Origin: Pseudomonas sp. WJP1
Lineage (GTDB): Bacteria > Pseudomonadota > Gammaproteobacteria > Pseudomonadales > Pseudomonadaceae
Assembly: GCF_028471945.1 (NCBI RefSeq)
Contig: NZ_CP110128.1
Location: 2,592,501-2,656,500, forward strand
Length of the DNA stretch: 64,000 nt
Reading direction: 5' to 3'
This document shows, piece after piece, positions 1-22,107 of the stretch (position 1 is its first letter; every line of letters starts with the position of its first letter). Position numbers and translations under genes: made by a program. The notes under the pieces are model-generated. The model was not told the origin of the DNA, searched no databases, and saw only the letters and a list, made by a program, of their open reading frames with translations.

Positions 1-236
1 CACCGGTGGTGCAGGTCCCCACTGCACCGCCCATGCCGTTCCAGTTCATCGGCCGGATGCATGACCGCACCGACCTGCAAGTGTTTTTGCAAAACGGCGA
101 AAAGATCTACGTCGTGCGTAAAGGGGATGTGATTGACGAAACATGGAAGATCGAGGGCATTTCCGATCTGGAACTGAGCCTGGTCTATTTGCCTCTGCAT
201 TTGTCCCAGACCTTGTCTGTGGGGAGCGCGCAATGA
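1..236 (+). CDS. Secretion-system PilP/GspC-like protein, C-terminal part
   Basis: The frame is open to the window edge, so this is the last ~78 residues of a longer protein. The visible part contains QVFLQNGEKIYVVRKGDVID and a YLPL segment near the end, the compact beta fold of PilP/GspC-type linker proteins that join an inner-membrane pilus platform to an outer-membrane secretin. The stop TGA overlaps the ATG of the secretin gene (ATGA), so the two are translationally coupled. The role is inferred from this position and the motif; the N-terminal half, where a membrane anchor would be expected, is outside the window. Confidence 0.6.
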   Translation, partial: PVVQVPTAPPMPFQFIGRMHDRTDLQVFLQNGEKIYVVRKGDVIDETWKIEGISDLELSLVYLPLHLSQTLSVGSAQ

Positions 237-2065
237 ACAAATCCCGTTTGCTGATGAGCCTGTGTATCTGCGCAGGGCTGGCTGCCTGCAGCTCGGCACA
301 GGTTGCCAAGGAAGAAGCCTCTGAGCTGATCGAGCAGGGCCAGTACGAAGCCGGCCTGGCCCGGATCGAGGAGGGCCTGCGGGAAAACCCTCGCGACACC
401 GAACTGCACATTGCCCTCAACAGCACCCGTGCCCGCGCGATCACGGCGCTGCTGACCCAGGCCGACATGGATCGCACCCAGCGTGATTTCGCGTCCGCCC
501 GCATGGGGTACGGCCGGGTGTTGACCATCGAACCGAACAACCGCCGCGCCCAGGACGCCCTGCGCCAGCTCGAACACATGCGCAGCCTCGATGAAAAACT
601 CGAACTGGCCCGTGGCGACCTGCGCCGCGGCGATATCTACGGCGCCGAGCGTCAAGTCAGGCAGATTCTCGAACTGGACCCGACCAACGAAGGCGCCCTG
701 GAACTGCAAGGGAATATCCGCCTGGTGCAGAGCCGCAACGTGGTGGCCTATCCGCAACTGCGCACCAAGCTGGACAAGCCGGTGACCCTGGAATTTCGCG
801 ACGCCAACCTCAAGACCATCTTCGAAGTGCTGTCCCAGGTCGCCGGCCTGAACTTCATCTTCGACAAGGACCTGCGCCCGGACATGAAAGCCACCATCTT
901 CGTGCGCGACGTGCGCATTGAAGACGCGGTGGAACTGCTGCTGCAACAGAACCAGCTGCACCAGAAAGTGGTGAACGAAAACACCTTGCTGATCTACCCG
1001 GACTCGCCGCAGAAGCTCAAGGATTACCAGGAACTGGTGATGCGCACCTTCTACCTGACCAGCATCGATGCCAACACCGCGTTGAACATGGTCAAGACCA
1101 TGCTCAAGACCCGCGACGTGTTCGTCGACGAACGCCTCAACACCCTGACCATGCGCGACACCGGCGACGCCGTGCGCATGGCGGAAAAACTCCTGCAGTC
1201 GCAGGATCAGTCCAACCCCGAAGTGGTGCTGGAAGTGGAAGTGATGGAAGTCGCCACCCAGCGGATCCTCGACCTGGGCCTGCAATGGCCGAACACCTTC
1301 GGCGTGATCAACAGCGACGGTAGCGCGGTCAGCGTTCTCGACCAGCTCAAGGGCATCAACTCGAGCCGGATCACTATCCAGCCCTCGCCACAGGCCAAGA
1401 TCAACGCGGCGGACAAGGACATCAATACCCTGGCCAGCCCGGTGATCCGCGTCAGCAACCGCGAACAGGCACGTATCCACATCGGCCAGCGCGTGCCGAT
1501 CATCAGCGCCACGTCGGTGCCCTCGACCCAGGGACCGGTGATCACCGAAAGCGTGACTTACCTGGACGTCGGTCTGAAACTGGAAGTGCAGCCCACCGTG
1601 CACCTGAACAACGAAGTGGCGATCAAGGTGGCCCTGGAAGTGAGTAATGCCACGCCACTGGAACCGACCCGCCAGGGCACGATTCCGGTCCAGGTCGATA
1701 CGCGCAACGCGCAGACCACCCTGCGCCTGCATGACGGCGAAACACAGATCCTCGCCGGCCTGATGCGCAACGACCATGGCAGCACCGGCAACAAGATTCC
1801 CGGTCTTGGCGATATTCCCGGCCTCGGCCGCCTGTTCGGCAGCAACAAGGACGACGTGAGCAAATCCGAGCTGGTGTTGTCGATCACGCCGCGGATCGTG
1901 CGCAACCTGCCGTACCAGAGCCCGTCGGACATGGAATTCCCTACCGGCACCGAAACCAGCATGCACATCCAGGCGCCGGACCGCTCGAAGGTCGAAGTCG
2001 AAGAGGTGAAAGTGCGGGGCATGAACGCACCGATCGCTACCACCGTCACCGTCGGGAAGCCTTGA
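233..2065 (+). CDS. TPR-containing secretin lipoprotein (GspD/PilQ/MshL-like)
   Basis: 610 aa. The ATG at 233 overlaps the previous stop and gives a lipoprotein signal with lipobox LAAC. Residues ~30-150 are TPR-like helices, ~170-310 the secretin N-domain region (the stretch beginning KPVTLEFRDANLKTIFEVLS), and ~400-560 the conserved secretin C-domain with VPIIS, the PTRQGTIPVQVDTRNAQTTL stretch and IPGLGDIPGLGRLF. Secretins form multimeric outer-membrane channels for type II secretion or type IV pili; the lipid anchor would let this one reach the outer membrane. It is followed by three pseudopilin genes and then csgEFG with almost no gaps, so it belongs to a secretion system physically linked to curli export. 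The substrate is unknown. Confidence 0.85.
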   Translation: MNKSRLLMSLCICAGLAACSSAQVAKEEASELIEQGQYEAGLARIEEGLRENPRDTELHIALNSTRARAITALLTQADMDRTQRDFASARMGYGRVLTIEPNNRRAQDALRQLEHMRSLDEKLELARGDLRRGDIYGAERQVRQILELDPTNEGALELQGNIRLVQSRNVVAYPQLRTKLDKPVTLEFRDANLKTIFEVLSQVAGLNFIFDKDLRPDMKATIFVRDVRIEDAVELLLQQNQLHQKVVNENTLLIYPDSPQKLKDYQELVMRTFYLTSIDANTALNMVKTMLKTRDVFVDERLNTLTMRDTGDAVRMAEKLLQSQDQSNPEVVLEVEVMEVATQRILDLGLQWPNTFGVINSDGSAVSVLDQLKGINSSRITIQPSPQAKINAADKDINTLASPVIRVSNREQARIHIGQRVPIISATSVPSTQGPVITESVTYLDVGLKLEVQPTVHLNNEVAIKVALEVSNATPLEPTRQGTIPVQVDTRNAQTTLRLHDGETQILAGLMRNDHGSTGNKIPGLGDIPGLGRLFGSNKDDVSKSELVLSITPRIVRNLPYQSPSDMEFPTGTETSMHIQAPDRSKVEVEEVKVRGMNAPIATTVTVGKP

Positions 2066-2067
2066 TC

Positions 2068-2541
2068 ATGAACGCCTCGCAACGCGGTTTTACCTTGATC
2101 GAAGTCGTGGTGACGCTGTCCCTGATCGGCCTGCTGGCCGGCATGGCCGCACCGCTGACCGAGACCGTGGTGCGCCGGGGCAAAGAGCAGGAACTGCGGA
2201 CCTCGCTGTACCAGATCCGCGATGCCATCGACGCCTACAAGCGCGCTTTCGACGCCGGTTACATCGAGAAGTCGCTCAACAGCAGCGGCTACCCGCCGAA
2301 CCTGCAGGTGCTGGTGGAAGGGGTGCGTGATGTGCGCAGCGCCAAGGGTGCCAAGTTCTATTTCCTGCGCCGCGTACCCCATGACCCGCTGGCGCCGGTC
2401 AAGCGCGACGACGAAGGTGGCTGGGGCCTGCGCTCCTACGACAGTACGGCTCAAAACCCGCGCGAAGGCCAGGACGTCTTTGACGTCTACTCCAAGGCCC
2501 GGGGCAAGGGTCTCAACGGCATCGCCTACCGGGAGTGGTGA
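2068..2541 (+). CDS. Type II secretion-like pseudopilin 1
   Basis: 157 aa. It begins with a class III prepilin leader: short basic N-terminus, RGFTLIEVVVTL with cleavage after Gly and Glu at mature position 5, then a ~20-residue hydrophobic helix. The globular part has the PulG/GspG-like pattern (ELRTSLYQIRDAIDAYK, YPPNLQVLVEG, VPHDPLAP, GWGLRSYDS). I chose ATG 2068 over an upstream TTG because it sits just after the secretin stop and gives a normal leader length. Prepilin peptidase would process it at the inner membrane; the fibre would push cargo through the secretin. It is one of three pseudopilins in a row. Confidence 0.85.
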   Translation: MNASQRGFTLIEVVVTLSLIGLLAGMAAPLTETVVRRGKEQELRTSLYQIRDAIDAYKRAFDAGYIEKSLNSSGYPPNLQVLVEGVRDVRSAKGAKFYFLRRVPHDPLAPVKRDDEGGWGLRSYDSTAQNPREGQDVFDVYSKARGKGLNGIAYREW

Positions 2542-2545
2542 ACAT

Positions 2546-2920
2546 ATGCGTCGGGAAAAGGGTTTTACCCTATTGGAACTGATGGTGGTCATGGCAATCA
2601 TCGCCACCCTGATGACGATCTCCTTGCCCCGCTATTTCAACAGCCTGGAGGCCTCCAAGGAGACCACCCTGCGCCAGAGCCTGTCGGCGATGCGCGAAGC
2701 ACTGGACCACTACTACGGTGACACCGGGCGCTATCCCGACTCCATCGAGCAGCTGGTTGAACAGCGCTACCTGCGCAATCCGCCGATGGACCCGATTGCC
2801 GAACGCAAGGACGCCTGGGTCATGGTCGCACCGCCTGACGGCGTGGCCGGCGGTGTCGCCGATATCAAGAGTGGTGCCACAGGGAGGGCGCGTGATGGCA
2901 GCCTGTATTCCGAGTGGTAA
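2546..2920 (+). CDS. Type II secretion-like pseudopilin 2
   Basis: 124 aa. The class III leader KGFTLLELMVVMAIIATLM has Gly before the cleavage site and Glu at mature position 5. The body carries SLSAMREALDHYYGDTGRYP and YLRNPPMDPI, typical of GspG/PulG-type major pseudopilins. It starts four bases after the preceding stop. Its size and both canonical residues make it a candidate major subunit of the pseudopilus; the exact family member is not decided by eye. Confidence 0.85.
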   Translation: MRREKGFTLLELMVVMAIIATLMTISLPRYFNSLEASKETTLRQSLSAMREALDHYYGDTGRYPDSIEQLVEQRYLRNPPMDPIAERKDAWVMVAPPDGVAGGVADIKSGATGRARDGSLYSEW

Positions 2921-3434
2921 GCCTGGGGCACAGGACGGCTTCACCTACCTGGGTGTGCTGTTCCTGATCATGGTGATGGGCATGGGCCTGGCCAGTGCCG
3001 GCGAGTTGTGGTCCACCGCCTCGCGCCGCGACCGCGAACGCCAATTGCTGTGGGTCGGCACCCAGTACGCCCAGGCACTGCGCAGCTATTACCGCAGTTC
3101 GCCAGGCCTGGCCCAGTACCCCAAGGAACTTGCCGACCTGTTGCAGGACGAGCGCTTTCCCAATGCCAAGCATCATATCCGCCAGCTGTACCCGGACCCG
3201 ATTGGCGGCGGTGAATGGTTCCTGATGCGCGGCTTCGACGGACGCATCACCGGCATCAGCAGCTCGGCCACGGAGCTGCCGCTCAAACAGGCGGACTTCC
3301 CCAGCCAGTGGTCGGACTTCAACGGCATGGCCAGCTACAAGGACTGGCAGTTCGTGGCCGAGAAAGCCTTCCTCGATGGCACCTCGGGCCCGGCCAAAGG
3401 CCAGTCCACAGCGCCGGAGGCATTGCAGCCATGA
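2895..3434 (+). CDS. Atypical pseudopilin 3, lacks Glu5
   Basis: 179 aa. The leader is GAQDGFTYLGVLFLIMVMGM: Gly precedes the cleavage site, but mature position 5 is Gly instead of the usual Glu. Loss of Glu5 is characteristic of the tip pseudopilin GspK, so this may be the tip or a minor subunit. The body has ERQLLWVGTQYAQALRSYY and YPKELADLLQD, also seen in pseudopilin-like proteins. The start lies inside the end of the previous gene (26-base overlap), and the stop overlaps the csgE start by 4 bases, tying the secretion and curli genes into one unit. Confidence 0.75.
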   Translation: MAACIPSGKPGAQDGFTYLGVLFLIMVMGMGLASAGELWSTASRRDRERQLLWVGTQYAQALRSYYRSSPGLAQYPKELADLLQDERFPNAKHHIRQLYPDPIGGGEWFLMRGFDGRITGISSSATELPLKQADFPSQWSDFNGMASYKDWQFVAEKAFLDGTSGPAKGQSTAPEALQP

Positions 3435-3820
3435 AGCGCTTTTGCCTGGTGTTGGTCCTGCTGTTGAGCAGCGCAGTGAGCTGGGCCGGTGAAGAGGACG
3501 AAATGCTCGGCTTCATCATCGACGACACGATCTCGCACATTGGCCACGAATTTTACTACTCGTTCAGTGAACGCCTGCGCGCCACCAGCCCGATGGATTT
3601 CAACCTGGTGGTACGCGAACGACCTTCGGCTCGCTGGGGCAGCCTGGTGACCGTGGAATTTCAACAACGCCTGGTTTACCGGCGCTTCCTGCCGCCAAAC
3701 ACCGTGGAGCTCAAGGACGAGGCCTATGCCGCCGCCGACTGGGTACGCGGACAGATTGTCCAGCGCAAGCTGGAAGCCTTGCTACAGGACACCACGGACC
3801 TTGAGAGGGACGAACTATGA
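3431..3820 (+). CDS. csgE: Curli assembly/transport protein CsgE
   Basis: 129 aa with a Sec signal peptide (cleavage after AVSWA). The mature protein has DEMLGFIIDDTISHIGHEFY, LVVRERPSARWGSLVTVEF and VYRRFLPP, which I recognise as CsgE. CsgE is a periplasmic adaptor that caps the CsgG pore and guides curlin subunits to it. The ATG overlaps the previous stop (ATGA), and the gene overlaps csgF in the same way. Gene order csgE-csgF-csgG is as in other curli loci. Confidence 0.93.
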   Translation: MKRFCLVLVLLLSSAVSWAGEEDEMLGFIIDDTISHIGHEFYYSFSERLRATSPMDFNLVVRERPSARWGSLVTVEFQQRLVYRRFLPPNTVELKDEAYAAADWVRGQIVQRKLEALLQDTTDLERDEL

Positions 3821-4236
3821 AAGCGAAAACGTTTTTGCAGCGCGCCGGTGGATGCATGCTCGGCCTGGGGGTTTGCGCCCTGGTCCAGGGCACGGAACTG
3901 GTCTACACGCCCATCAACCCTTCGTTTGGCGGTAACCCGTTGAACGGCACCTGGCTGCTCAACAACGCCCAGGCGCAGAACGACTACGACGATCCCGACT
4001 TGAAGGATCGCACCTCGGCGGCCGGGACCTCGGCCCTGGAGCGCTTCAGCGCCCAGTTGCAATCGCGCTTGCTGGGGCAACTGCTGGACAACATCTCCAC
4101 CGGCAACACGGGGAGCCTGTCCACGGACGCTTTCATCGTCGACGTGGTCGACGACTCCGGTGCGCTGACAATCAACGTGACCGACCGGGCCACGGGTGAA
4201 GTTTCGGAAATCCAGGTGAATGGCCTGGCCCCTTGA
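3817..4236 (+). CDS. csgF: Curli assembly protein CsgF
   Basis: 139 aa with an N-terminal signal ending near VQGTE. The mature start LVYTPINPSFGGNPLNG is the CsgF signature; this segment inserts in the CsgG channel, while the C-terminal part helps anchor the CsgB nucleator at the cell surface. The start codon overlaps the csgE stop. Length is close to that of the E. coli protein. Confidence 0.95.
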   Translation: MKAKTFLQRAGGCMLGLGVCALVQGTELVYTPINPSFGGNPLNGTWLLNNAQAQNDYDDPDLKDRTSAAGTSALERFSAQLQSRLLGQLLDNISTGNTGSLSTDAFIVDVVDDSGALTINVTDRATGEVSEIQVNGLAP

Positions 4237-4266
4237 GGGGAATCGGGACAATGGGGAGTTAAGGAC

Positions 4267-5139
4267 ATGAAAAAAATAATTGCGCTAGGGCTGATGTTGG
4301 CGGCATTACAAGGGTGCAGTCTGCGCGAGCCGATGCCGGCAGAGCAGGACTCCAAAACCCCGACCCTGACCCCAAGGGCCTCGACTTACTACGACTTGAT
4401 CAACATGCCACGACCCAAGGGCCGGTTGATGGCGGTGGTCTACGGCTTCCGCGACCAGACCGGGCAATACAAGCCGACCCCGGCCAGCTCGTTTTCCACC
4501 AGCGTCACCCAGGGCGCGGCGAGCATGCTGATGGACGCCTTGCAGGCCAGCGGCTGGTTCGTGGTGCTGGAACGTGAAGGGCTGCAGAACCTGTTGACCG
4601 AGCGCAAGATCATCCGCGCCTCGCAGAAGAAACCAAACACCCCGGTGAACATCCAGGCCGAGCTGCCACCGCTGCAAGCGGCGAACATGATGCTCGAAGG
4701 CGGGATCATCGCCTACGACACCAACGTGCGCAGCGGCGGCGAAGGCGCGCGCTACCTCGGTATAGACATTGCCCGGGAGTACCGCGTCGACCAGGTCACG
4801 GTGAACCTGCGGGCGGTGGACGTGCGCAGCGGGCAGGTGTTGTCCAACGTCATGACCAGCAAGACCATCTACTCCGTGGCCCGCAGTGCCGGGGTGTTCA
4901 AGTTCATCGAGTTCAAGAAGCTGCTCGAAGCCGAGGTGGGCTACACCACCAACGAACCGGCGCAGTTGTGTGTGTTGTCGGCGATCGAAGCGGCGGTGGG
5001 GCACATGCTGGCGCAGGGCATCGAGCGGCATTTGTGGCAGGTGGCGGGGGATAATTCCCAGCCTGCGCAGAATGAGACGCTGGATCGGTACCTGACGCAG
5101 AACCGGGTGGTGCCGGAGGGTGAGGGCGCGGATGAGTGA
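4267..5139 (+). CDS. csgG: Curli secretion channel lipoprotein CsgG
   Basis: 290 aa. It has a lipoprotein signal with lipobox LQGC and a good ribosome site (AAGGA) just before ATG. The body contains KGRLMAVVYGFRDQTGQYKP, FSTSVTQGAASMLMDAL, GWFVVLEREGLQNLLTERKI and YLGIDIAREYRVDQVTVNLR, all CsgG hallmarks. CsgG forms the nonameric outer-membrane pore for unfolded CsgA and CsgB. It is the last gene of this + strand unit; about 970 bases of repeat-rich DNA follow. Confidence 0.96.
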   Translation: MKKIIALGLMLAALQGCSLREPMPAEQDSKTPTLTPRASTYYDLINMPRPKGRLMAVVYGFRDQTGQYKPTPASSFSTSVTQGAASMLMDALQASGWFVVLEREGLQNLLTERKIIRASQKKPNTPVNIQAELPPLQAANMMLEGGIIAYDTNVRSGGEGARYLGIDIAREYRVDQVTVNLRAVDVRSGQVLSNVMTSKTIYSVARSAGVFKFIEFKKLLEAEVGYTTNEPAQLCVLSAIEAAVGHMLAQGIERHLWQVAGDNSQPAQNETLDRYLTQNRVVPEGEGADE

Positions 5140-5284
5140 GCCGATCCAGACTGTAGGAGCCAGGCTTGCCGGCGAAGGCGGCCTGTTAGCCGACCTGGCC
5201 CCTGCAGATGTACCCGATCCAAACTGTAGGAGCTGGCTTGCCAGCGATGGCGTCCTTACAGCCGGCCTATGTTTTGTTGACTGT

Positions 5285-5617: not shown

Positions 5618-5620
5618 CCC

Positions 5621-7639: not shown

Positions 7640-9094
7640 TTACTTCTGCATCACAGTCGCACTGTTAGCCGTACCAAACTGCTGCACGTTCGCCATCTGG
7701 GTCATGCCACTCTGGTCGACGCTGGCAATGTTGCCAGTCCCCCCCTGGGTCACATAGGCGACGTTCATGGTGTCGGCCTGCTTGATGGTGATCATGTTGT
7801 CTTCGCCATACAGCTGCGTGGTGAACGCCTGGTTGCCGCTGCCTTCCTGGTTGAAGTCGGTGGTGTTGTTGGTGCCGGTGCTGCTGCCCTGGGCCAGGTT
7901 GTTGGTGCCGCGCTGGTCGGCGATCAGGATGTTGTCGGTGCCGTTCTGGTCGAAGTACAGCTCGTTGTAGGATTCGCTCTGGCTGACCGTGGTTTTGTTG
8001 CCGTAGCCGGTCTGGTTGGTGGTCATGATGTGGCCGGTGTCTTTCTGGGTGAAGTTGGCGACGTTGCCGTCGCCGTTCTGGTTGACGGTGGCGCGCTGGT
8101 TGCTGCCGAACTGGCCGCCCATTTGTGTTGCCGGGCCTTTCCAGTTGCTGGCGTAGACCTTGTTGTCGTTACCCGAGGACGTGGCGTTGAGCACATGGTC
8201 GGTGCCGGTCTGGTAGGTGAAGTGGATGTTGCCGATGCCCTGTTGATTGAGCGTCACGGTCGAGCCCATGGACTCGAACTGGTCGGCATAGATGGCGTTG
8301 AGGTCGCCGACCTGAAACACCTGGGCAACGTTGTGGTCGCCGTAGCTCTGGTCGACGATGGTTTCGTTGGTCTGGCCGTTCTGGTCGATGGTGGTTTTGC
8401 TGGCGACCTGGGTGTCCTGCCAGACTTCGCTGCCGTTGCCGTCGCCGTACTGGTTGATGGTCAGGTTGCCGCCATCGCCGTAGCGCTGGTCACCGTAGGC
8501 ATAGTTGGTGCCGCCGGACTGGTTGATGTCGATCTGGCCGTTCATGTGGTTGATCTGTTCGGCGGTGGCGTAGTTGGCGGTGCCGTACTGGATGATCACC
8601 GCGTTGTTGGCCGTGCCCACCTGGATCTGTTCGATATTGGCTTCGTTGCTGTCGCCGTACTGGTAGGTTTTGCCGGAGGTGTTTTCCTGGCTGTCCTGGT
8701 AGATGAACGAGAAGTTGCCGTTGCCTTCCTGTTGTTGCAGGACCTCGCCGCCGCCGACCCCGATCGACTGGCTGGCATGGCTGACGTTGTTGTCGCCGCT
8801 CTGGTTCTGGATGATGGTGCTGTTGCTTTCGAACAGTTGCTCGGCGTAGCCGGCGTTGTAGTTGCCAGACTGGTTCTGCTCGATGGTACTGGTGACGTTG
8901 TCTTGTACGGCGGCCGCATCGTTGCCCGTACCGGACTGGTTCTGGGTGGCGGTGCTCAGGGGGGCCGCCGTCTGTTTCACATCGGCGATGTTGGTGTCAC
9001 CGAACTGGTTTTGGGTCGACACGCTGTCCTCGGCCAATGCTTGAGCACTGACTATGACCAGGATGGCGGCGGTGAGGGGCGTCAGTTTAAACAT
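7640..9094 (-). CDS. csgA: Major curlin CsgA, unusually long
   Basis: 484 aa with a signal peptide ending at AQALA. The whole mature part is curlin-type repeats of the pattern Q-x-G-x-x-N-x-a-x-x-x-Q (for example QNQSGTGNDAAAVQ, INQYGDGNGSEVWQ, VNQNGDGNVANFTQ). I count about 25-28 units, some degenerate, against five in the 151-aa E. coli protein. Each unit forms a strand-turn-strand of the amyloid beta-helix. The region rich in G, N and Q is secreted unfolded through CsgG. The ribosome site GGAGG precedes ATG. It lies 27 bases after csgB on the same strand. Some central units lose the Q ladder (around TGTDHVLNATSS). Confidence 0.95.
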   Translation of the reverse strand: MFKLTPLTAAILVIVSAQALAEDSVSTQNQFGDTNIADVKQTAAPLSTATQNQSGTGNDAAAVQDNVTSTIEQNQSGNYNAGYAEQLFESNSTIIQNQSGDNNVSHASQSIGVGGGEVLQQQEGNGNFSFIYQDSQENTSGKTYQYGDSNEANIEQIQVGTANNAVIIQYGTANYATAEQINHMNGQIDINQSGGTNYAYGDQRYGDGGNLTINQYGDGNGSEVWQDTQVASKTTIDQNGQTNETIVDQSYGDHNVAQVFQVGDLNAIYADQFESMGSTVTLNQQGIGNIHFTYQTGTDHVLNATSSGNDNKVYASNWKGPATQMGGQFGSNQRATVNQNGDGNVANFTQKDTGHIMTTNQTGYGNKTTVSQSESYNELYFDQNGTDNILIADQRGTNNLAQGSSTGTNNTTDFNQEGSGNQAFTTQLYGEDNMITIKQADTMNVAYVTQGGTGNIASVDQSGMTQMANVQQFGTANSATVMQK

Positions 9095-9121: not shown

Positions 9122-9583
9122 TTAGCGATATTGAGTGACCGATACGCTCATTCCATTTCCTGCTTGGGTCACAGCGCTTTGCTGCCCCGTGCCGGCCTGG
9201 ACAATGCTGGCGTCGTTGTTGTTGCCGTTCTGGGATATCTGCGCGCGGTTGTGGCTGCCGGTTTGGGTGATGGACGCGGCGTTGCCGGAACCTTGCTGGT
9301 TGATCAAGGCCATCAGGTCGCTGCCTTGTTGCAGGATGTATGCTTCCTGATTGCTGCCCGACTGCACGATCTGGCCGAGCAGCGACTGGCCGTTCTGTTG
9401 CAACAGCGCGACGTTGGCCTGGCCGTTCTGGTCGATCAGGGCTTGCTGGCCCACCGGGGGTGGCAGCTCGCCGAGATCGGCGCCGGGCGCCAGGTCGTCG
9501 TTTTCCATCAAGTCGTCGGCGCGCAGGACCGCGCTGCTGCAAAGCAGGAGCAGGCAGAGCAGGGCGGCGGTCGACGTTTTCAT
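9122..9583 (-). CDS. csgB: Curlin nucleator CsgB
   Basis: 153 aa with a signal peptide ending at VLRA. A ~30-residue acidic, Pro-rich N-terminal segment (ENDDLAPGADLGELPPP) precedes about six curlin repeats (IDQNGQANVALLQ, INQQGSGNAASITQ, ISQNGNNNDASIVQ). CsgB nucleates CsgA polymerisation on the cell surface and is held there with help from CsgF. csgB before csgA is the usual order. AAGGAC lies before the start. Confidence 0.92.
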   Translation of the reverse strand: MKTSTAALLCLLLLCSSAVLRADDLMENDDLAPGADLGELPPPVGQQALIDQNGQANVALLQQNGQSLLGQIVQSGSNQEAYILQQGSDLMALINQQGSGNAASITQTGSHNRAQISQNGNNNDASIVQAGTGQQSAVTQAGNGMSVSVTQYR

Positions 9584-9643: not shown

Positions 9644-11893
9644 TCAGTTCGCGATGACCTGCACCGTGCGCACGGTGCCTTGGGACGAGGTGATGGTGGC
9701 TGTCGGGTTCGCCGACGGAATCACCGTTGTGCTGTTGCTCACTGTCAGCCTCCAGCGTCCGGTCAACGGCACCGTGGTGCTACCCAGCGTCACCAGCCCG
9801 GTTGGCGTGGTCACCTGGACAGTGATGGTGTTGCCGGTGGTCACCGATGAAGTCCCTGTGAAGTCCCAGTTGAAGCGGTTGTTGGAACGGGCTGTCACCG
9901 TGGCCGCTGTCACCGCGAAGGTTTCCGCAGCAGGCCGTGGCGAGACTTGCACCGTGACCGTGGCTGGCGACGTCGACACGGCACCGAAAGCGTCCCGGGC
10001 GAAGTAGTTGAAGGTCGTGGTGAAGGCCGAGGTGACGGTGGCCGGTGGGTTGTAGGTCAGGACCGTGCCGTTACTGGTGACGGTGCCGCGACCGGTCGGT
10101 GGTTGGCTGAAGCTGTTGATCGCCAGCGGTACGTTGCCTTCCGGATCGGTGTCGTTGGCCAGCACGTTGATCGGTATCGACACACCCAGGGTCGCGATAC
10201 CGTCGGCGACGGCCACCGGAGGCTGGTTGGGCGCCACGGTGATGGTCACGGTCGCCGCAGCGGTCGAGGCCAGGCCTTTGATGTCTTGCGCCTTGTAGGT
10301 GAAGGTCGTGGTCAGCGGAACGGTGACCACGGCTGGCGGCGTATAGACGACGGCCGTGGTTCCGCTCAACGTCACGGTGCCCTGGCCGGTGGCCGGTTGG
10401 GTCAGCTCGGTGATGCTCAGCGGTGTGTTGCCGTCCGGGTCGCTGTCGTTGGTCAGCACGTTGAGGGTGATCGGGATACCGAAGCTGGTGCTGCCGCTGT
10501 CGGCGACGGCAATCGGCGCCTTGTTCTCGCCGGTGTCTGGCGCTGTGCCGACGACCACGACTGGCTCGGTATCGCTACCGCCCGAGGCCGATTTGATCGT
10601 GACGGTTGCCGGTGGCTGGGCCAGGTCAGCGACGGTCAGGCGCTGCAGGGTGCCGGACTTGGTCAACCGTCCGTAGCCCTGGGCGACCATGTCCGGTACC
10701 ACCACTTCGTCAGACGAGGTGGCTTCGATCAGCAGGCTGTGGTTGCTCCAGCTGTAGCGAGCGGTCTGGACTTTCACCACGTCGGTGACTTTGCTCGACA
10801 CGGCCGTTGGTTTTTTTGTGTCAGTCGGATCGGTCGCGGTGACCACCACCACCGGAGGAACGGTCGCTCCCGTCAGGCGGCTGGCGAAGAACTGGCCGCT
10901 GTTGTCGCCGAGCATGTCGACCAGGCAAGGCGTCGGGGGCGATCCGGGAACCAGTGCCACGGTTTCGCGGAAGCACACGTTCGAACCGTTGACCGATTTG
11001 CCAAAGACTTCTACTCGAGTGCTGCTGGTGCCTGGACCCGAAGAAGTACGGCGGTACGTGGCGCGGCCGATTTCCACGGGGGTTGGCGCACGGCTGTCGA
11101 GTATCTTGCCGGAAACGGTAAACAGATTGGTCTCGATGGTCCCGGGCGGACCCTGGACGCGCAGGAAATTGGTGTTGAACGGGCTGCCGGTGACGGCTTC
11201 GGAAAGGTTCGGGTCGCCGACGAATTTATCGATGGTCCCGGTGTCCGGGTTCATTTCGGGGTAGGGACCGTTGACACTTTGCAGGAAGGGCCCAACCTGA
11301 CCGTTGAGAGCGCCCGAGAAGTTGCCCGGTGCGCCGATGCCGATGTCGCGGGTGATGTTGATCGCCCGACGGCCCGGCGTGGTGACGTTGACCGTTTCCG
11401 TGCCGTACGGGTGGGTGATGATGTAGGTCCCGGCGACAGGCACGTTCACCCGCAGGCGAATCCGCGCGAAGCTTGCCTGATCGCCGTCGACAGGATTTTC
11501 CGCCGCGAATGCCGCTTCGATCCCGGCCACGTAGGCATCCACGCCATAGCCGCCGACATCGTTGATGCTGGTCTCGGCAAGGAACCAGAACGCTTCCGGT
11601 GGCCAGTTATCCGGGAACACCATCGGCTGGGTGTCGTCGTAAACCCCGGGTTCCGGATTCAGGATGCACATGTAGGCGGGCGCGCCAGGCGCACCCGGTG
11701 CCCGCGTACTGGTCGCCCGTGACTGGCACAGTTCCAGCTTCAGCAGATTGTTGTCTTGATACCACATGGGGAATTTCCCCGTGGCAAAGGTGTAGGGGCC
11801 GGGGTCGACGGCAGCGAGTTGCGCGAACGCACTGCCGGACAGCGAGAGAGTCAGCCCGAGCGCGTTGAGCGCGAAGCGTGGCCACTTGTTCAT
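9644..11893 (-). CDS. Secreted multidomain protein with cadherin-like/Ig-like repeats
   Basis: 749 aa; the start at 11893 is fixed by a perfect AGGAGGC site. A signal peptide ends at GSAFA. Residues ~1-280 (AVDPGPYTFATGKFPMWYQD, GAPGAPAYMCILNP, GVYDDTQPMVFP, RRAINITRDIGIG, DPNLSEAVTGSPFNTNF) are shared with the upstream paralogue. A middle part ends in a module ATVTIKSASGGSDTEPVVVV, also shared. Then come two bacterial cadherin/VCBS-like domains (NKAPIAVADSG..NVLTNDSDPDG and NQPPVAVADGI..NVLANDTDPEG) and a C-terminal beta domain. No anchor is seen. Its place directly upstream of csgB suggests a surface or matrix protein working with curli; no function is known to me. Confidence 0.8.
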   Translation of the reverse strand: MNKWPRFALNALGLTLSLSGSAFAQLAAVDPGPYTFATGKFPMWYQDNNLLKLELCQSRATSTRAPGAPGAPAYMCILNPEPGVYDDTQPMVFPDNWPPEAFWFLAETSINDVGGYGVDAYVAGIEAAFAAENPVDGDQASFARIRLRVNVPVAGTYIITHPYGTETVNVTTPGRRAINITRDIGIGAPGNFSGALNGQVGPFLQSVNGPYPEMNPDTGTIDKFVGDPNLSEAVTGSPFNTNFLRVQGPPGTIETNLFTVSGKILDSRAPTPVEIGRATYRRTSSGPGTSSTRVEVFGKSVNGSNVCFRETVALVPGSPPTPCLVDMLGDNSGQFFASRLTGATVPPVVVVTATDPTDTKKPTAVSSKVTDVVKVQTARYSWSNHSLLIEATSSDEVVVPDMVAQGYGRLTKSGTLQRLTVADLAQPPATVTIKSASGGSDTEPVVVVGTAPDTGENKAPIAVADSGSTSFGIPITLNVLTNDSDPDGNTPLSITELTQPATGQGTVTLSGTTAVVYTPPAVVTVPLTTTFTYKAQDIKGLASTAAATVTITVAPNQPPVAVADGIATLGVSIPINVLANDTDPEGNVPLAINSFSQPPTGRGTVTSNGTVLTYNPPATVTSAFTTTFNYFARDAFGAVSTSPATVTVQVSPRPAAETFAVTAATVTARSNNRFNWDFTGTSSVTTGNTITVQVTTPTGLVTLGSTTVPLTGRWRLTVSNSTTVIPSANPTATITSSQGTVRTVQVIAN

Positions 11894-11928
11894 GATGCCT
11901 CCTGATGCGGATCTGGGCATGAGAGCGT

Positions 11929-13275
11929 TCATTGCACGATGACCACTTCTTCGGTGTCAGTGCCGCCATTGGATGACGTCACGGTGACCTTGGCCGGTGG
12001 AATCGGCGTGATGCCGGTCGACAGGATTTTTTCCGCACCATCACCGAGCAGATCGCCGATGGTGGCACCGGTGCCGGATGTGACGGTGAGTACGGGGGGG
12101 GAGGTTTCATCGCTGGACGAGGCCACGACGGTGAGCAGGCCCCCGTTGATGCGGTATTCGGCACGGGAAATCACCACCAGGTCGGTCAGTTTCGTAGGCA
12201 CGGTGGTCGGCGTGCTGGTGGGGATGGCCAGGTGGTTGTCGGCAGTCACCTGCAAGTTGATCGGCAACGTCGGGTTGGTGGCGGATTGGGCATACCAGTG
12301 GCCGGTGGTGTTGGCCTCAGTCAGGTTCAGCACCGGGTTGTTGCTGTCCAGTGTCACGGTGGCCGGAGGTGGCGGGGCCATCACGAACACGTCCTGCTGG
12401 GCGACCGGGGCGCTTTCGCCGGCCTTGCGCGAGTAAGTGCTGCGTTCGGCAATGATCGGGGTGGGTCGGACCACCGTCGACAACTTGCCGGAAATGGCCA
12501 TCACCGTCGTCCGCAAGTCCAACCCGTTAGGTCCTTCGATGCGGATGTAGTTGGTGTTGAACGGGCTGCCGGTGAAGGCTTCCGACAGGTTCGGATCGCC
12601 GACGAATTGCTCGGCTTGACCTGTGGCCGGGTTGGTCTCGGTGTAGGGGCCGTTGACACTGCGCAGGAAGGGACCGATGTCACTCTTGAGGGCGCCGTCA
12701 TAGGTTTTCGGCGAGCCGATGCCGATGTCCCGGGTCATGTTGATCGCGCGGCGCCCACCGGCGGGAACGTCGAATATATCGACGCCGTAGGGGTGGGTGA
12801 TGGTGTAGACGCCGGCGGTGGGCACGTCGACCCGAATACGGATACGGCCAAAACTGACCTGGTCGCCGTCGTGCACATCTTCCGCGGCGAAGGCGGCTTC
12901 GACAGCGCTGACATAGGTCAGGTCGATGCCCCGTGCCGCGTCGACGATTGAGCCGTCGCCGGTGAACCAGAACGTTTCATCGGGGAAATTGGTCGGAAAA
13001 AGGATCGGCTGCGTGTCGTCGAATACCCCGGGAGCCGGATTCAAAACGCACATGTAGGCGGGTGCGCCAGGTGCGCCGGCAACCCTGGAACTGACAGCTT
13101 TTGACAAGCACAGGTCGAGGGTTCGACCATGGCTGTCCTGATACCAGGAAGCGAAGCCACCCGTGGCCGGCAGGTAGGGGCCGGGATCTACAGCAAACAG
13201 CGCAGCTTGGGCGGCGCCTTGAGCCAGAGCACTCACGATCAGGGCGATCGTGGTTTTGGACAGTAAAGGGTGCAT
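11929..13275 (-). CDS. Secreted protein, short paralogue of the downstream cadherin-like protein
   Basis: 448 aa with a signal peptide ending at GAAQA and a GAGGGAA ribosome site. Its first ~280 residues parallel the next gene (AVDPGPYLPATGGFASWYQD, GAPGAPAYMCVLNP, GVFDDTQPILFP, RRAINMTRDIGIG, DPNLSEAFTGSPFNTNY), and it ends just after the shared module AKVTVTSSNGGTDTEEVVIV, lacking the cadherin-like tail. Conserved Cys in LCLSKA and YMCVLNP could form a disulfide. It is probably the first gene of a four-gene unit (this gene, its paralogue, csgB, csgA). Function unknown. Confidence 0.75.
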   Translation of the reverse strand: MHPLLSKTTIALIVSALAQGAAQAALFAVDPGPYLPATGGFASWYQDSHGRTLDLCLSKAVSSRVAGAPGAPAYMCVLNPAPGVFDDTQPILFPTNFPDETFWFTGDGSIVDAARGIDLTYVSAVEAAFAAEDVHDGDQVSFGRIRIRVDVPTAGVYTITHPYGVDIFDVPAGGRRAINMTRDIGIGSPKTYDGALKSDIGPFLRSVNGPYTETNPATGQAEQFVGDPNLSEAFTGSPFNTNYIRIEGPNGLDLRTTVMAISGKLSTVVRPTPIIAERSTYSRKAGESAPVAQQDVFVMAPPPPATVTLDSNNPVLNLTEANTTGHWYAQSATNPTLPINLQVTADNHLAIPTSTPTTVPTKLTDLVVISRAEYRINGGLLTVVASSSDETSPPVLTVTSGTGATIGDLLGDGAEKILSTGITPIPPAKVTVTSSNGGTDTEEVVIVQ

Positions 13276-13566
13276 GAGTATTCCCTCTATCAGAGTACCT
13301 GCCCCTTGGGATATGGGTCAGTTGAGAGGTCTTCGGCAACTCCCATGCCAACTGCCGGAAATGTCGGTGCCGGCCCCGGTACACGGGCGTTTGCCGCACG
13401 CTCGAAGGTCGAGTGGGAAATCACGGTGCGGGCGTCTTTCCCCAGCATTGGGGGTAGATGGGGGGCAGAGGGGGTGATGGAGGTGTGGGGAAGGAATGCC
13501 CCCAAGGTCGGGCAAACCGCTGGCAGTGCGCTATAAACCTATAGGGGTTTCGCGGGAACACTATCC
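13276..13566. other. Divergent promoter region, curli genes / sensor kinase
   Basis: 291 bases between divergent genes. There is a G-rich stretch (13451-13495) and a small dyad AAACC..GGTTT (13535-13550) just before the kinase start. I could not identify a convincing -24/-12 site here. Confidence 0.5.
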
Positions 13567-15015
13567 ATGACCACGCTTGCAAAGACACTGGCGTCCGACC
13601 AGGGCGAAATTCGCTTGAGCTCGCGCAAACAGCCGTTCAATCTGCTGCGCTGGTTTTCGCTCATCAGCATGGCGGTGATCGGCACCGTGGCGGTGGCGTT
13701 GGGCTCGGTGTCGACCAAGTTCGTGATTACCGAAAGCGTGGAACGCGATGCCCTGTTGACGTCGCAATTCATCCAGGCGATCGCCTCGGCCGAAGTGCGC
13801 CACGTATCGATTCCCAATGTGCGGACCATGGGCGAGTTGCTCGACCCGCGCAAGGACCTGGACTTTCCCGACGTCGACCCACTGGCCCGCGCCAACGCCC
13901 GGGGTGAATTCCTCGACCATATCGAACACTTGCCGGATGTGATCCTGGCCAACATCTATGCCCCCGACCGCATGATCATCTGGTCGACCAACCCGGCCCT
14001 GATGGGGACCACGATTCACGCCGACGAAGACCTGGACCAGGCCTTCGCCTCGAAGAGGCCCGTGTCGGCCAGTTATCACGATGTCGACAAGGCGCGCATG
14101 GAACAGAAATTCGTCACGCCGCCGGAATACATTTTCATCGAAAACTACATTCCGCTGTTCGATGCCGAAGGCAAGAACGTCACGGCGATGGTCGAGATCT
14201 ACAAGGAACCCAAGGACCTGATCAGCCGGATGGAACGTGGCCTGGTGCTGATATGGTTGGCCACGGCCCTGGGCGGCGGGCTGATTTACCTGGGGCTGTA
14301 CTGGATCGTGCGGCGGGCGGCGATCCTGCTGGCGGCGCAACAGAAGCAACTGATCACCAACGAAACCTTCGTGGCCCTGGGCGAGATGTCGTCGGCCGTT
14401 GCCCACAGCCTGCGCAACCCTCTGGCCACCATTCGCTCAAGCGCCGAACTGGCACTGGAGTTCGACAGTGGCCCGGCGCACAAGAACATCAACGACATCA
14501 TCGGCCAGGTCGATCGCATGTCGAAGTGGGTGCGCGAGCTTCTGCAATCCTTGCGCCCGCTCAATGACGACGGCGAGCCGGTAAACCTGGTGGCGGCGCT
14601 GCACGACAGCCTCATGGCTTTCGAGCAGCAGATCGTCAAGGGCCGGGTCAATGTGCTGTTCGAACCCATAGGCACGCCGATGGTGTTGAGCCAGCAGGTG
14701 CAGCTGACGCAGATCCTCAACAGTTTGCTGGCCAATGCGCTGGAGGCCATGGACGAAGGCGGTACCTTGGCCATGACGATGACGCCCATCGATACCCAGC
14801 GTGTTCGCGTGGTGGTCAGCGATACCGGCAAAGGCATGAACGAGGAACAGCGACTCATGGCATTCCGGCCGTTTTTCACCACCAAGCAGGGCGGGCTCGG
14901 TGTCGGCCTGGTGCTGGTCAAGCGCATCATGGAACGCTTTGGCGGGGCGGTGGCCCTGGAAAGCCGGGAGGGCGAGGGCACCCGCGTCAGCCTGACATTC
15001 AGGCGAGTTCCCTGA
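13567..15015 (+). CDS. mnxS1: Sensor histidine kinase, MnxS1-like
   Basis: 482 aa. TM1 at ~27-47, a ~170-residue periplasmic sensor segment (EHLPDVILANIYAPDRMIIW, FIENYIPLFDAEGKNVTAMV), TM2 at ~222-245, then the H-box VAHSLRNPLATIRSSAE with His280, an N-box ILNSLLANALEAM, DTGKGM and GGLGVGLVLVKRIMERFGG of the ATPase domain. No HAMP or PAS is obvious. It is a close paralogue of the kinase at 19215. In P. putida GB-1, from memory, MnxS1 and MnxS2 both act through MnxR to activate Mn(II) oxidation; the gene set here has the same make-up. Kinase call sure; the Mnx assignment is by context. Confidence 0.8.
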   Translation: MTTLAKTLASDQGEIRLSSRKQPFNLLRWFSLISMAVIGTVAVALGSVSTKFVITESVERDALLTSQFIQAIASAEVRHVSIPNVRTMGELLDPRKDLDFPDVDPLARANARGEFLDHIEHLPDVILANIYAPDRMIIWSTNPALMGTTIHADEDLDQAFASKRPVSASYHDVDKARMEQKFVTPPEYIFIENYIPLFDAEGKNVTAMVEIYKEPKDLISRMERGLVLIWLATALGGGLIYLGLYWIVRRAAILLAAQQKQLITNETFVALGEMSSAVAHSLRNPLATIRSSAELALEFDSGPAHKNINDIIGQVDRMSKWVRELLQSLRPLNDDGEPVNLVAALHDSLMAFEQQIVKGRVNVLFEPIGTPMVLSQQVQLTQILNSLLANALEAMDEGGTLAMTMTPIDTQRVRVVVSDTGKGMNEEQRLMAFRPFFTTKQGGLGVGLVLVKRIMERFGGAVALESREGEGTRVSLTFRRVP

Positions 15016-15161: not shown

Positions 15162-15202
15162 AATCCCCCATCACCCCCTTCACATAATCGAGGCGGCTGG
15201 TG

Positions 15203-18010
15203 ATGGACACAAAAGCGCGGTATCCCTTCAAATGGTTTGGTCTGTTGACGCCATTGAGCGTCGCCTTGACGATTTCACTCAGCACAGGGACCTTGCGCGC
15301 CAGCCCCATAGACGATGAGCGACAGCCGGAACCGACTGATCCTTCTGCCTATTACGATGAGCCTGAAGACCGGGTGGGGGCACTGAACGCCATCCTGACC
15401 ATGCCCGAGGCCAACGAGGACTCCTTCGACTTGCCCGACGGGGTCAAGGGTTCACGCGATACCGAACGGTTGGAAAACGTCCTGCCGCCTGCCGCGCAAA
15501 CCAGTTTCAACTACCCCACCAATGGCAAGCCGAGCCCGTTGTTTGGCGCCCAGCCGTTCACCCAGCAATTGCTGCTGTTCGAAGAGTTCGGCCCGGAAAA
15601 GCTCGACCCGACCACCCCGGCGGCACCCTTGCCGTTTCCCGCGGCGGCCATTGGCCCGTTACCGGCACAAGACCCCAACAGTGCGGCCCGCAGCGCACCA
15701 CCGGGACCTGCGCTCGATACCTTCCTGCGCCAACCGGGGCTGACCCCGTTCCCCAGCCAGTACGCCAACGAAGTGGATCGCAACCCGTGGCAGGCGCAGA
15801 TCGAGTACTTTCTCAACCGTCATATCGGCTCGTCGGCCGAAGGCCGTCCGCCAGGAAAGGGCTGGTCCCATCAGCGCTGGAACGAGTTCTATCCGCAAAA
15901 CGCCTACAAAACCGTGCAGACCGGGGCGCGGATCAACGGTGGCTTGCGTGACGCCCGGCAGATGCACGGCTATGCCTTGGGCGAGTTCGGCCCCGGTGGC
16001 CTGTATCACAACGTTGCCGGTGTACCGGCCACGGACGGTACGGCCAAGGGCGTCGACCCGCGCTTTCACCCGGCGATGCCGGTACAGAACCACAACTCGG
16101 TCTGGACGTTCGACGGCACGCTGCCGCCCAAACTGTTGATGGTGCGCTACGGCCAACCGCTGCTGATGCGCCACTACAACGGCTTGCCGATCGATCCGTC
16201 GGCCAACATGGGCTTTGGCCTGCACACCATCAGTACCCACGAACACAACGGCCACGCGCCCGCGGAAAGCGACGGTTATGCCAACGCGTTTTTCTTCCCC
16301 GGGCAGTACTACGACTATCGCTGGCCGATCCAGCTGGCCGGCTACGACAGCATCAATACCGACGCCCATGATCCGCGCGCGGCGTTCCCTTGCTCGCCGG
16401 GCGAAACCCTGTGGACCAATGACATGAGCCCGGGTCGCAAGACCTGCGAGAACGGCACGATCAAGATCCGCGGCGACTGGCGCGAAACCATGAGCACCCA
16501 CTGGTTCCACGACCACATGCTGGATTTCACCGCGCAGAATGTCTACAAGGGCAACGCGGCGATGATGAACTACTACAGCGCCCTGGACCGTGGCAACGAG
16601 TCGGTGAACGACGGCGTCAACCTGCGTTTCCCCAGCGGCAGCGCCTTGCCATGGGGCAACCGCGACTATGACGTCAACCTGGTGTTCGCCGACAAGGCCT
16701 GGGACGGCAATGGCCAGCTGTGGTTCAACCCCTTCAACACCGACGGCTTCCTCGGTGACCAGGTGCTGGTCAACTGGCAGTGGAAACCGACCCTGGATGT
16801 GCGCGCCCGCAGCTATCGCTTCCGGATGCTCAACGGCTCGGTTTCGCGCTACTTCAAACTGGCGCTGGTGCGTGAAATCAAGGGCACCAGTGGCGAGTTC
16901 CAGGGGCCCAAGGGCTCGGGTGTGTCCTATGCCCGCGTGCCTTTCCACATGATTGCCAACGACGGCAACATCATGGAACACAGCGTGCCGTTCGACGGCA
17001 CCATGGACCTCGACGCCGACGGCGATAAACAGAACCACAACGCAATCCTGCCGACCCAGGGCATTGCCGAGCGTTTCGACATCATCGTCAACTTCGCGAA
17101 AAACGGCATCAAGCCCGGGGACAAACTGTTCTTCGTCAACCTGCTGGTGCATGACGATGGCAAGGGGCCGAAGGAGCCGGTGTCGCTGGCGGACGCGCTT
17201 TCGGAAAATTACAAGGCAGTGATCAAGCAAACCAGCAAAGGACCGATGTGGGACAAGGGTGACCCGGCAGTGGGCAAGGTGTTGCAACTCAACGTCAAAC
17301 CCTACACCGGTCAGGACCTGGCCATGGACCCTGCCGCCTACGAGCCGGCCAAGCCGGGCAAGGCTGAAGGCCTGGTGATGATCCCGCTGAAAATCCATCG
17401 CGACAACGCGGCCGACAAGGCGCTGCTGGCCAAGGCCCGCCATCGCACCTTCACCTTCGGCCGCTCCGATGGCACCGATGAAGCACCCTGGACCGTCAAG
17501 ACCGATGGCGGCTTCGGTTTCCACATGGACCCTCGGCGCCTGAACTCCTCGACCCAGTTGGCCAGCGGGCCGACCGATGCCGGGGGCGCGGGCTACGGCA
17601 CCCTGGAAGTGTGGAACATCAAGGCCGGCGGTACGGGCTGGAGCCACCCGGTTCACGTGCACTTCGAGGAGGGGATCATCCTCAGTCGCGGCGGCAAGGC
17701 CCCACCGGAATGGGAAAAATGGGCTCGCAAGGACGTGTACCGCATCGGCTCGGAAAAGGACGGCCTGGACAGCGTCGAGATGGCGATCAACTTCCGTGAA
17801 TTCGCCGGGACCTACATGGAGCACTGTCACAACACCCAGCACGAGGACAACTCCATGCTGCTGCGTTGGGACATCGAGAAGCCCGGGCAATTCCAGTTGA
17901 TGCCGACCCCGTTGCCAAGCTGGGATGGCGTGCGCTACGTGAACTCCGCCGCGTTGCCAACCTTCCGTACTGGCGACGGCTTCGGTCCGAAAGTGACGGT
18001 CAAACAATGA
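15203..18010 (+). CDS. mcoA: Large multicopper oxidase, McoA-like
   Basis: 935 aa with an N-terminal signal-like segment. Four copper-binding motifs are visible: HEHNGH (~res. 349), HWFHDHM (~433), HPVHVHF (~815) and HCHNTQHEDNSMLL (~874; Cys and His of the type 1 and trinuclear sites). It is much longer than laccases or CopA. Multicopper oxidases of this type oxidise metal ions or phenols with O2 in the periplasm; in P. putida GB-1 a similar protein (McoA) is one of the Mn(II) oxidases, according to my recollection. It is followed with a 4-base overlap by the SCO1-cytochrome gene and preceded by a sigma-54 promoter. ATG 15203 follows GAGGCGG. Confidence 0.82.
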   Translation: MDTKARYPFKWFGLLTPLSVALTISLSTGTLRASPIDDERQPEPTDPSAYYDEPEDRVGALNAILTMPEANEDSFDLPDGVKGSRDTERLENVLPPAAQTSFNYPTNGKPSPLFGAQPFTQQLLLFEEFGPEKLDPTTPAAPLPFPAAAIGPLPAQDPNSAARSAPPGPALDTFLRQPGLTPFPSQYANEVDRNPWQAQIEYFLNRHIGSSAEGRPPGKGWSHQRWNEFYPQNAYKTVQTGARINGGLRDARQMHGYALGEFGPGGLYHNVAGVPATDGTAKGVDPRFHPAMPVQNHNSVWTFDGTLPPKLLMVRYGQPLLMRHYNGLPIDPSANMGFGLHTISTHEHNGHAPAESDGYANAFFFPGQYYDYRWPIQLAGYDSINTDAHDPRAAFPCSPGETLWTNDMSPGRKTCENGTIKIRGDWRETMSTHWFHDHMLDFTAQNVYKGNAAMMNYYSALDRGNESVNDGVNLRFPSGSALPWGNRDYDVNLVFADKAWDGNGQLWFNPFNTDGFLGDQVLVNWQWKPTLDVRARSYRFRMLNGSVSRYFKLALVREIKGTSGEFQGPKGSGVSYARVPFHMIANDGNIMEHSVPFDGTMDLDADGDKQNHNAILPTQGIAERFDIIVNFAKNGIKPGDKLFFVNLLVHDDGKGPKEPVSLADALSENYKAVIKQTSKGPMWDKGDPAVGKVLQLNVKPYTGQDLAMDPAAYEPAKPGKAEGLVMIPLKIHRDNAADKALLAKARHRTFTFGRSDGTDEAPWTVKTDGGFGFHMDPRRLNSSTQLASGPTDAGGAGYGTLEVWNIKAGGTGWSHPVHVHFEEGIILSRGGKAPPEWEKWARKDVYRIGSEKDGLDSVEMAINFREFAGTYMEHCHNTQHEDNSMLLRWDIEKPGQFQLMPTPLPSWDGVRYVNSAALPTFRTGDGFGPKVTVKQ

Positions 18011-20676: not shown

Positions 20677-22107
<1,431 letters not shown>

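Follow-up and report, generated by a model that had tools for sequence, protein, structure and literature searches.

The secretin-pseudopilin-csgEFG block and its surroundings

The first genes of a 64,000-nucleotide stretch of the Pseudomonas sp. WJP1 genome (the window; G000:C1:2592501-2656500, G000 being the source genome, a single 7.0 Mb contig) join a type-II-like secretion machine of the Xcm kind to a curli export operon. Between positions 233 and 5139, a secretin, three pseudopilins, csgE, csgF and csgG follow one another on the plus strand, with overlaps of 4-26 nt and gaps of at most 30 nt. The secretin (233..2065, 610 aa) shows the Pfam TPR-like region, STN, Secretin_N and Secretin (136 bits), and reaches 153.3 bits against the NCBIfam GspD model, under its cut-off of 351.35. 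Its start is placed at 233 rather than 1 because bases 3-236 are the end of the upstream gene for an HR-domain protein, a putative GspC/PilP-like clamp (3..236, plus strand; the rest lies upstream of the window at L002:11718-12236), with which the secretin gene overlaps by 4 nt. Pseudopilin 1 (2062..2541; Pfam N_methyl, E 2.3e-8; GspG-like at 38.4 bits, under the cut-off of 88.85) starts with a TTG that overlaps the secretin gene by 4 nt, or alternatively with an ATG at 2068 that leaves a gap of 2 nt. It is followed after 4 nt by pseudopilin 2 (2546..2920; N_methyl, E 1.7e-9; GspG-like at 51.1 bits, under the same cut-off), whose end overlaps pseudopilin 3 (2895..3434) by 26 nt. Pseudopilin 3 matches nothing in Pfam or NCBIfam; in its alignment with 12 relatives (A1, 13 sequences) it lacks Glu5, presumably a GspK-like trait. 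We take pseudopilins 1 and 2 to be xcmT2/xcmT3-like, pseudopilin 3 to be xcmX-like, and csgE, csgF and csgG to be the csmE, csmF and csmG of earlier naming.

The csgE gene (3431..3820) overlaps pseudopilin 3 by 4 nt and csgF (3817..4236) by another 4 nt, and csgG (4267..5139) follows after a gap of 30 nt. Their products match Pfam CsgE (121.5 bits), CsgF (106.9 bits, cut-off 25.8) and CsgG (269.7 bits, cut-off 20.8); against the NCBIfam models they score 161.9 bits (over the CsgE equivalog cut-off of 137), 116.5 (under 171) and 300 (under 505), respectively. The earlier note had described secretin, pseudopilins and csgEFG as contiguous and as one transcription unit. Genes and junctions are confirmed, except that the gap before csgG exceeds the "few bases" it gave; secretin, pseudopilins and csgEFG are probably on one transcript. 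No sigma-70-like site was found in window positions 1-14000, where 3.0 would be expected by shuffling. Among named genomes, a separate scan turned up 257 relatives, of which the closest 80 Pseudomonas loci were kept; complete csgE, csgF and csgG lie behind pseudopilin 3 in 76 of these 80. In the 77 loci whose csgE and pseudopilin 3 both align, the computed csgE start is never more than 14 nt away from the last pseudopilin-3 codon. On both counts, this order is not due to chance. In genome G057, additional partial csgG copies lie downstream of the intact csgG (L040:3956-5593).

The 12 kb before the window (L002) hold, in order, the end of mnxG, genes for a beta-propeller protein, two SCO1 proteins (a name based on the published mnxG operon and on cross-matches), a cytochrome c/binding protein, a PpiC protein and a lone receiver domain, and then gspE, a protein at the PilM position, PilN, PilO and the HR protein. 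The full-length MnxG scores 3925 bits (cut-off 3100). The gspE gene ends 2.4 kb upstream of the secretin gene, and an adjacent pair of gspG (192.9 bits, cut-off 88.85) and gspF (283.8 bits, cut-off 424) diverges from mnxG, with a lytic transglycosylase gene in between; two Peptidase_A24 prepilin peptidase genes lie elsewhere in the genome. The gspE/gspF-like genes that the earlier note had proposed to look for upstream are thus both present and, since gspE, PilN, PilO, the HR protein, gspG, gspF and prepilin peptidases are all located, the Xcm machine of this genome looks complete. The possibility that gspF is missing was rejected on its position here and on the occurrence of its orthologue in precisely the 61 genomes that carry the secretin (see below). 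That GspC is missing was rejected on the predicted fold of the HR protein. This protein matches no Pfam family over cut-off, and a profile search returned two PDB chains, both PilP (E 0.041 and 0.25). The AlphaFold model of its C-terminal domain has a predicted local distance difference test score (pLDDT) of about 86-96 by blocks, and its Foldseek ranks 1-14 are all PilP, GspC, GspB, PulC or LspC (3jc8_Pa being presumed PilP), 3oss_C, for example, having a TMt of 0.81; the best E among them is 4.7e-3, so that none reaches E <= 0.001. No Pfam or NCBIfam family matches the protein at the PilM position, and its search against the PDB gave no convincing relative.

On the minus strand, a unit running from 13275 to 7640 encodes a short secreted paralogue (11929..13275), a long one (9644..11932), a CsgB-like curlin of 153 aa (9122..9583) and a CsgA-like curlin of 484 aa (7640..9094), joined by a 4 nt overlap and then by gaps of 60 and 27 nt. 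Pfam Curlin_rpt matches three stretches of the CsgB-like and six of the CsgA-like protein, which scores 152.7 against NCBIfam CsgA, under the cut-off of 160. Both paralogues have signal-peptide-like starts (by eye), and the long one carries C-terminal Ig-like repeats (Big_9, Cadherin_4; alignment A2). The short one has 2029 homologues among the candidates scored, and the 120 homologues listed are all without a functional name (hypothetical, uncharacterized, 'Glycoprotein gp2', Cadherin_4). The AlphaFold model of the short paralogue is weak and beta-rich (pLDDT 64.8, predicted TM score 0.46), and its leading Foldseek matches, Ig-like and adhesin-type chains, reach a query TM of about 0.2; because of this weak model and these poor structural matches, no function is claimed for the paralogues.

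Beyond this unit, on the plus strand, lie a sensor kinase that is MnxS1-like by position (13567..15015; histidine kinase families, under equivalog cut-offs), a multicopper oxidase that is McoA-like by position (15200..18010; partial CueO-type matches), an open reading frame (ORF) for a SCO1-like protein with a C-terminal CxxCH (cytochrome c, by eye; 18028..19113; tblastn cross-match to the SCO1 genes of the mnxG operon), an ORF for a second sensor kinase, MnxS2-like by position (19173..20708; cross-matching MnxS1 homologues), and an MnxR-like sigma-54-dependent response regulator (20677..22107; NtrC-type, 390.3 bits, under the equivalog cut-off of 558.6). The positional names follow the layout given for strains DSV-1 and MS-1 in the available text of PMC11409713. 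The intergenic stretch between csgG and csgA (5140-7640) is repeat-rich and contains a 311 nt inverted pair, 93% identical and 1.5 kb apart. Its motifs are, we presume, of the repetitive extragenic palindromic (REP) kind, and they resemble by eye those of a tandem array at 23565-24379 (71 bp unit, 11.5 copies, 92% matches).

Promoter-like sites, co-occurrence and joint absence

Sigma-54-type sites were scored with weights of our own and judged against shuffled sequence. Such a site is the best one before mnxG in all 20 genomes sampled, with a score reached by at most 0.5% of shuffles. The receiver gene at the head of the xcm-csg unit is likewise preceded by one in 20 of 20, as the top hit in 19 (G131 being the exception). 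The sequence TGGCAYGAAGNNTGC lies upstream of the receiver gene in 79 of the 80 named loci (the 80th is too short), with no further occurrence in 1.47 Mb, although some of the 80 named genomes had also been used to derive it. A -24/-12 site precedes the paralogue-csgB-csgA unit (13335..13350, minus strand), 59 bp before the start, and none of 500 shuffles reached its score. Correspondingly, the best site lies 57-71 bp before the short-paralogue start in 18 of 18 readable loci (17 islands and one at a second mnxG); nine of the 20 loci fetched for this site are unreadable there. A weaker site, equalled by 2% of shuffles, precedes mcoA in the window. In P. putida GB-1, PmnxG and PmcoA are described in the available text of PMC11930936 as predicted IHF/sigma-54 promoters activated by manganese (Mn).

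Across a survey of 199 genomes of the genus, a secretin orthologue (at least 600 bits) occurs in 61 (72-100% identity, one cut by a contig end), MnxG in 59, all of them inside these 61, and CsgE in 66. A gspF orthologue (at least 66% identity) is found in exactly the same 61 genomes, and it diverges from mnxG at a distance of 1.5-2.0 kb in 39 of the 59 MnxG genomes. Its frame carries one stop codon in two MnxG genomes (G060:C5:80635-81837 and G027:C1:132435-133625). As to layout, csgE stands right behind the Xcm block in 59 of the 61 secretin genomes (truncated in G137), and MnxG lies 10.4-12.3 kb upstream of the secretin in 53. In the remaining eight, the xcm contig ends before mnxG (G025, G076, G134, G170, G174), mnxG is about 180 kb off (G102), or MnxG is absent (G163 and G021, which also lack a CsgE match). 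Where more than 8 kb of sequence extends beyond csgG (54 named loci), matches to CsgA, CsgB and the long paralogue occur there in 46.

Joint absence was followed further in 20 of the 80 named genomes, a non-random choice that includes all four csg exceptions. MnxG occurs in 17 of them, and curlin repeats in the same 17 (G592, which resembles G137, with one repeat only); the three genomes without MnxG (L213, L217, L218) are also without curlin repeats, and they retain the xcm genes within reach, the L213 contig ending just past xcmX. Together with G163 and G021, in which CsgE is missing, five MnxG-less genomes therefore keep xcm. In G163 the csgE and csgG fragments abut, and in G021 the transglycosylase and SCO1 genes stand without mnxG and the beta-propeller gene between them, the contig ending inside the secretin. 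On a GspE tree of 93 tips, L135 (G021), L213, L217 and L218 belong to a clade of seven tips whose other members are L193, L202 and L216, and the four are not monophyletic; the genomes of L193 and L202 carry MnxG. Judged by distances, this suggests about three losses in the clade, in addition to that of G163 elsewhere in the tree.

Four extra MnxG copies were also read. Those of G000 and G167 lie beside a second paralogue pair and that of G087 beside a different csg operon, and that of G151 has neither within the 16 kb read. In G000 (L047, G000:C1:2214001-2234000), the second mnxG, about 75% identical, is divergent from the second paralogue pair, with sigma-54-like sites on both sides; in G087 (L046:8138-17434), it diverges from a curli operon of another type that lies about 1.2 kb away.

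Related clusters exist without either partner. A secretin of 33-37% identity occurs in ten genomes of the genus in which neither CsgE nor MnxG has a match; the six sister loci fetched all encode GspE and three pseudopilins besides this secretin, all from the same families, with no csg beside them. In the four sister loci searched (L034, L037-L039), a gene resembling lytic polysaccharide monooxygenases (LPMOs) lies between the pseudopilins and gspG, Pfam LPMO_10 being confirmed on one, and this GbpA-type LPMO is the probable chitin-binding cargo of its Xcm-type cluster. In a second survey of 398 genomes of the phylum, nine besides the own genome gave a pseudopilin 3 match (E 1e-6 or better), all nine outside the genus and one of them weak (G443). 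Nine readable loci from seven genomes (L061, L062, L064-L069, L071) contain gspG, gspF, gspE, the secretin and three pseudopilins; no csgE, csgF or csgG match was found in the fetched stretch, and no mnxG lies beside. The G507 and G443 loci (too short or weak), L072 (a weak match) and L063 (a 5 kb contig) were left out of this reading. MnxG (E 1e-50 or better) turned up in the own genome; a match below the cut-off came from G299, where a distant MnxG-like protein of 2054 residues (L070) is accompanied by beta-propeller, SCO and cytochrome genes and stands apart from the Xcm cluster. In G440 (L066), an Xcm-type cluster faces, in convergent orientation, an operon that has two multicopper-oxidase ORFs and also encodes an Ig-repeat protein, a subtilase, a SCO-like protein and a cytochrome c; the Big_9 protein there was not counted as a homologue of the long paralogue, its alignment lying mainly in the Ig repeats.

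Proposed cargo and control of the two export machines

Gene content, conserved layout, promoter-like sites, co-occurrence and joint absence, all read directly from the genomes, would be best explained, with a probability of about 0.72, by two machines in one MnxR/sigma-54 Mn programme, Xcm for the oxidase and CsgEFG for curli. Xcm, a non-canonical type-II-like machine of which the secretin and the pseudopilins would form the distal part, would carry the Mn(II)-oxidising MnxG (perhaps also McoA or the paralogues) across the outer membrane. CsgEFG would be a separate, ordinary curli (type VIII) exporter, encoded on the same mRNA and serving the curlins of the opposite strand. MnxR, a sigma-54 regulator, would switch on both systems through similar promoters, the exported oxidase and an amyloid fibre layer holding Mn oxide appearing together. 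The identity of the cargo, the control of the xcm-csg and csgBA units by MnxR and the role of the fibre are predictions from sequence, among which MnxG is the better-supported candidate cargo of Xcm; the probable LPMO cargo gene inside an Xcm-type cluster offers a precedent for it. The paralogues could be cargo of either exporter.

Several observations weigh against this programme. The receiver-gene site is modest in single genomes, where up to 6.5% of shuffles equal it, and its strength lies in its conservation; the site of the csgBA unit is weakened in five of the 18 loci, where the GC of the -12 element is changed; and mnxS1, mnxS2, csgB, csgA and csgE have no sigma-54-type site better than chance in the window. 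Nor has the gspG-gspF unit (33% of shuffles reach its score), so that the shared promoter type is not established for it. The gspF gene lies away from mnxG in 20 of the 59 MnxG genomes (in nine at a large distance on the mnxG contig, in 11 on a different one), and the Fisher tests of association, although extreme, are uncorrected for phylogeny. Eight of the 54 named loci mentioned above lack csgBA and the paralogues beside csgG, all eight genomes having curlin repeats elsewhere, and csgBA and the paralogues are also absent from the 3.4-6.9 kb read in L040, L052, L136, L137 and L141. G137 retains MnxG, xcm and the paralogues with a truncated csgE, no csgF or csgG match and curlin fragments only, from which it follows that curli are not needed for the persistence of the rest. 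Finally, xcm persists after MnxG is gone, including gspF in G163 and G021; therefore, xcm may have other cargo or decay slowly.

Three other explanations have to be weighed. The earlier note was right about a type-II-like machine and about a link to curli and to the two secreted paralogues; its further suggestion of a hybrid export machine, here read as the Xcm secretin/pseudopilus and CsgEFG acting as one exporter for curlins or curli-associated proteins, fits the tight coupling of csgE to xcmX (within 14 nt in the 77 aligned loci). However, Xcm occurs without adjoining csg in the nine readable loci outside the genus and in the six LPMO-type sister loci, csg occurs without this secretin in seven of the 66 csgE genomes and as free-standing second copies (L042, L044), and xcm is retained in csg-less genomes. 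CsgG-type export in E. coli, moreover, works without a secretin. Because each half is found without the other, we reject a hybrid exporter, to which we give the smallest chance of the three. That csg and xcm share an operon by mere accident of a co-inherited island, with no common function, agrees with the loss of csg alone in G137 and with the uncorrected phylogeny; it is improbable given the joint absence with MnxG in genomes that keep xcm, the similar promoter-like sites at separate units and another type of csg beside the extra MnxG of G087.

A slightly better, still unlikely explanation is that Xcm mainly exports the Ig-like/adhesin-like paralogues, which would decorate or anchor curli, its link to MnxG being regulatory only. 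The paralogues do precede csgB-csgA in one unit, and their starts look like signal peptides by eye. Second pairs, however, stand beside second mnxG copies without csg (L047, L146) and G137 keeps its paralogues with mnxG after csg loss, so that the paralogues follow MnxG at least as much as csg; moreover, secretion mutants of GB-1 reportedly affect the Mn-oxidising factor (de Vrind 2003, by its title).

Within the preferred reading of two machines under one Mn programme, curli may serve as a scaffold for biomineralisation, which we hold tentatively, at somewhat under even odds. MnxR/sigma-54 would co-induce MnxG, its private exporter Xcm, the Ig-like surface proteins and the amyloid, and Mn oxide would be laid on extracellular curli; loss of the oxidase would make the amyloid dispensable, which would explain the joint absence. 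The present data, which bear on how Pseudomonas exports a Mn oxidase of about 1,950 residues and on what organises the surrounding oxide, tie together an exporter that is known but little followed, an oxidase, a regulator and an amyloid. They predict curli genes in the Mn regulon, a point of interest for metal cycling and for filters that remove Mn. The part worth following is the coupling of curli to MnxG through a shared promoter type and joint absence.

Relation to known systems

In comparison with known curli (type VIII) systems, the locus encodes CsgE, CsgF, CsgG and curlin-repeat CsgA/CsgB proteins at Pfam cut-offs, whereas of the E. coli-type NCBIfam equivalogs only CsgE is over the cut-off, with CsgF, CsgA and CsgG under; unlike those systems, its csgEFG genes are joined to a secretin-pseudopilin operon. 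In P. putida, csgEFG and csgAB form two clusters, according to the available text of PMC3056050, and that of PMC3521004 states that, P. stutzeri excepted, csgD is lacking in the vicinity of Pseudomonas csg, and makes no mention of 'secretin' or 'type II'.

With the canonical type II secretion systems (Xcp/Hxc/Gsp), the machine shares a secretin, GspE, GspF, GspG (over its cut-off), pseudopilins, an HR protein and a prepilin peptidase in the genome. It differs in its PilN/PilO-type platform genes and in having three further pseudopilin-like genes in place of GspH-K; GspD (153.3/351.35 bits), GspE (495.3/630.25) and GspF (283.8/424) all score under the equivalog cut-offs. The LPMO sister clusters and those of other genera have the same secretin, GspE, GspF, GspG and three-pseudopilin families, but neither csgEFG nor mnxG beside them.

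The mnxG operon contains the same six genes as the published Pseudomonas operon, as far as the available texts of PMC11409713 and PMC8218464 give it, and the order kinase-mcoA-SCO-kinase-regulator equals the mnxS1-mcoA-SCO-mnxS2-mnxR of DSV-1 and MS-1 in the former. The interval from SurA to mnxS1 comprises 17 genes here and, if the IMG numbers in Table 4 of PMC11409713 are consecutive, 17 in DSV-1 and MS-1. The intervening genes go unmentioned in the main texts of both papers, which contain neither 'secretion' nor 'curli', and 'csg' does not appear in that of PMC11409713. In the open-access literature, outside which the key 2003 and 2010 papers lie, the joint absence of MnxG and curli and the shared promoter type look unreported.

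The closest known counterpart is Xcm of P. putida GB-1, in which a two-gene operon, xcmT1-xcmS, reportedly stands apart from xcmT2, xcmT3 and xcmX, clustered with csmE, csmF and csmG, and in which no xcpP homologue is said to have been reported. Likened by gene content to that list, WJP1 has the same gene set, an xcmX-type pseudopilin, two further pseudopilins and csgEFG, and a separate gspG-gspF (xcmT1-xcmS-like) pair as well; relative to what is reported of GB-1, this pair adjoins mnxG and an HR (GspC/PilP-like) protein is present. The GB-1 machine, a 'Gsp-related pathway', is needed to export the Mn-oxidising factor (de Vrind et al. 2003, Mol Microbiol 47:993, as cited in the available texts of PMC4509608, PMC3798386, PMC3056050, PMC3521999 and PMC4672498). 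The core Xcm-csg arrangement seems to have been reported already in this relative, and it is not a new hybrid; in WJP1, the block sits between mnxG and mnxS1-mcoA-mnxS2-mnxR.

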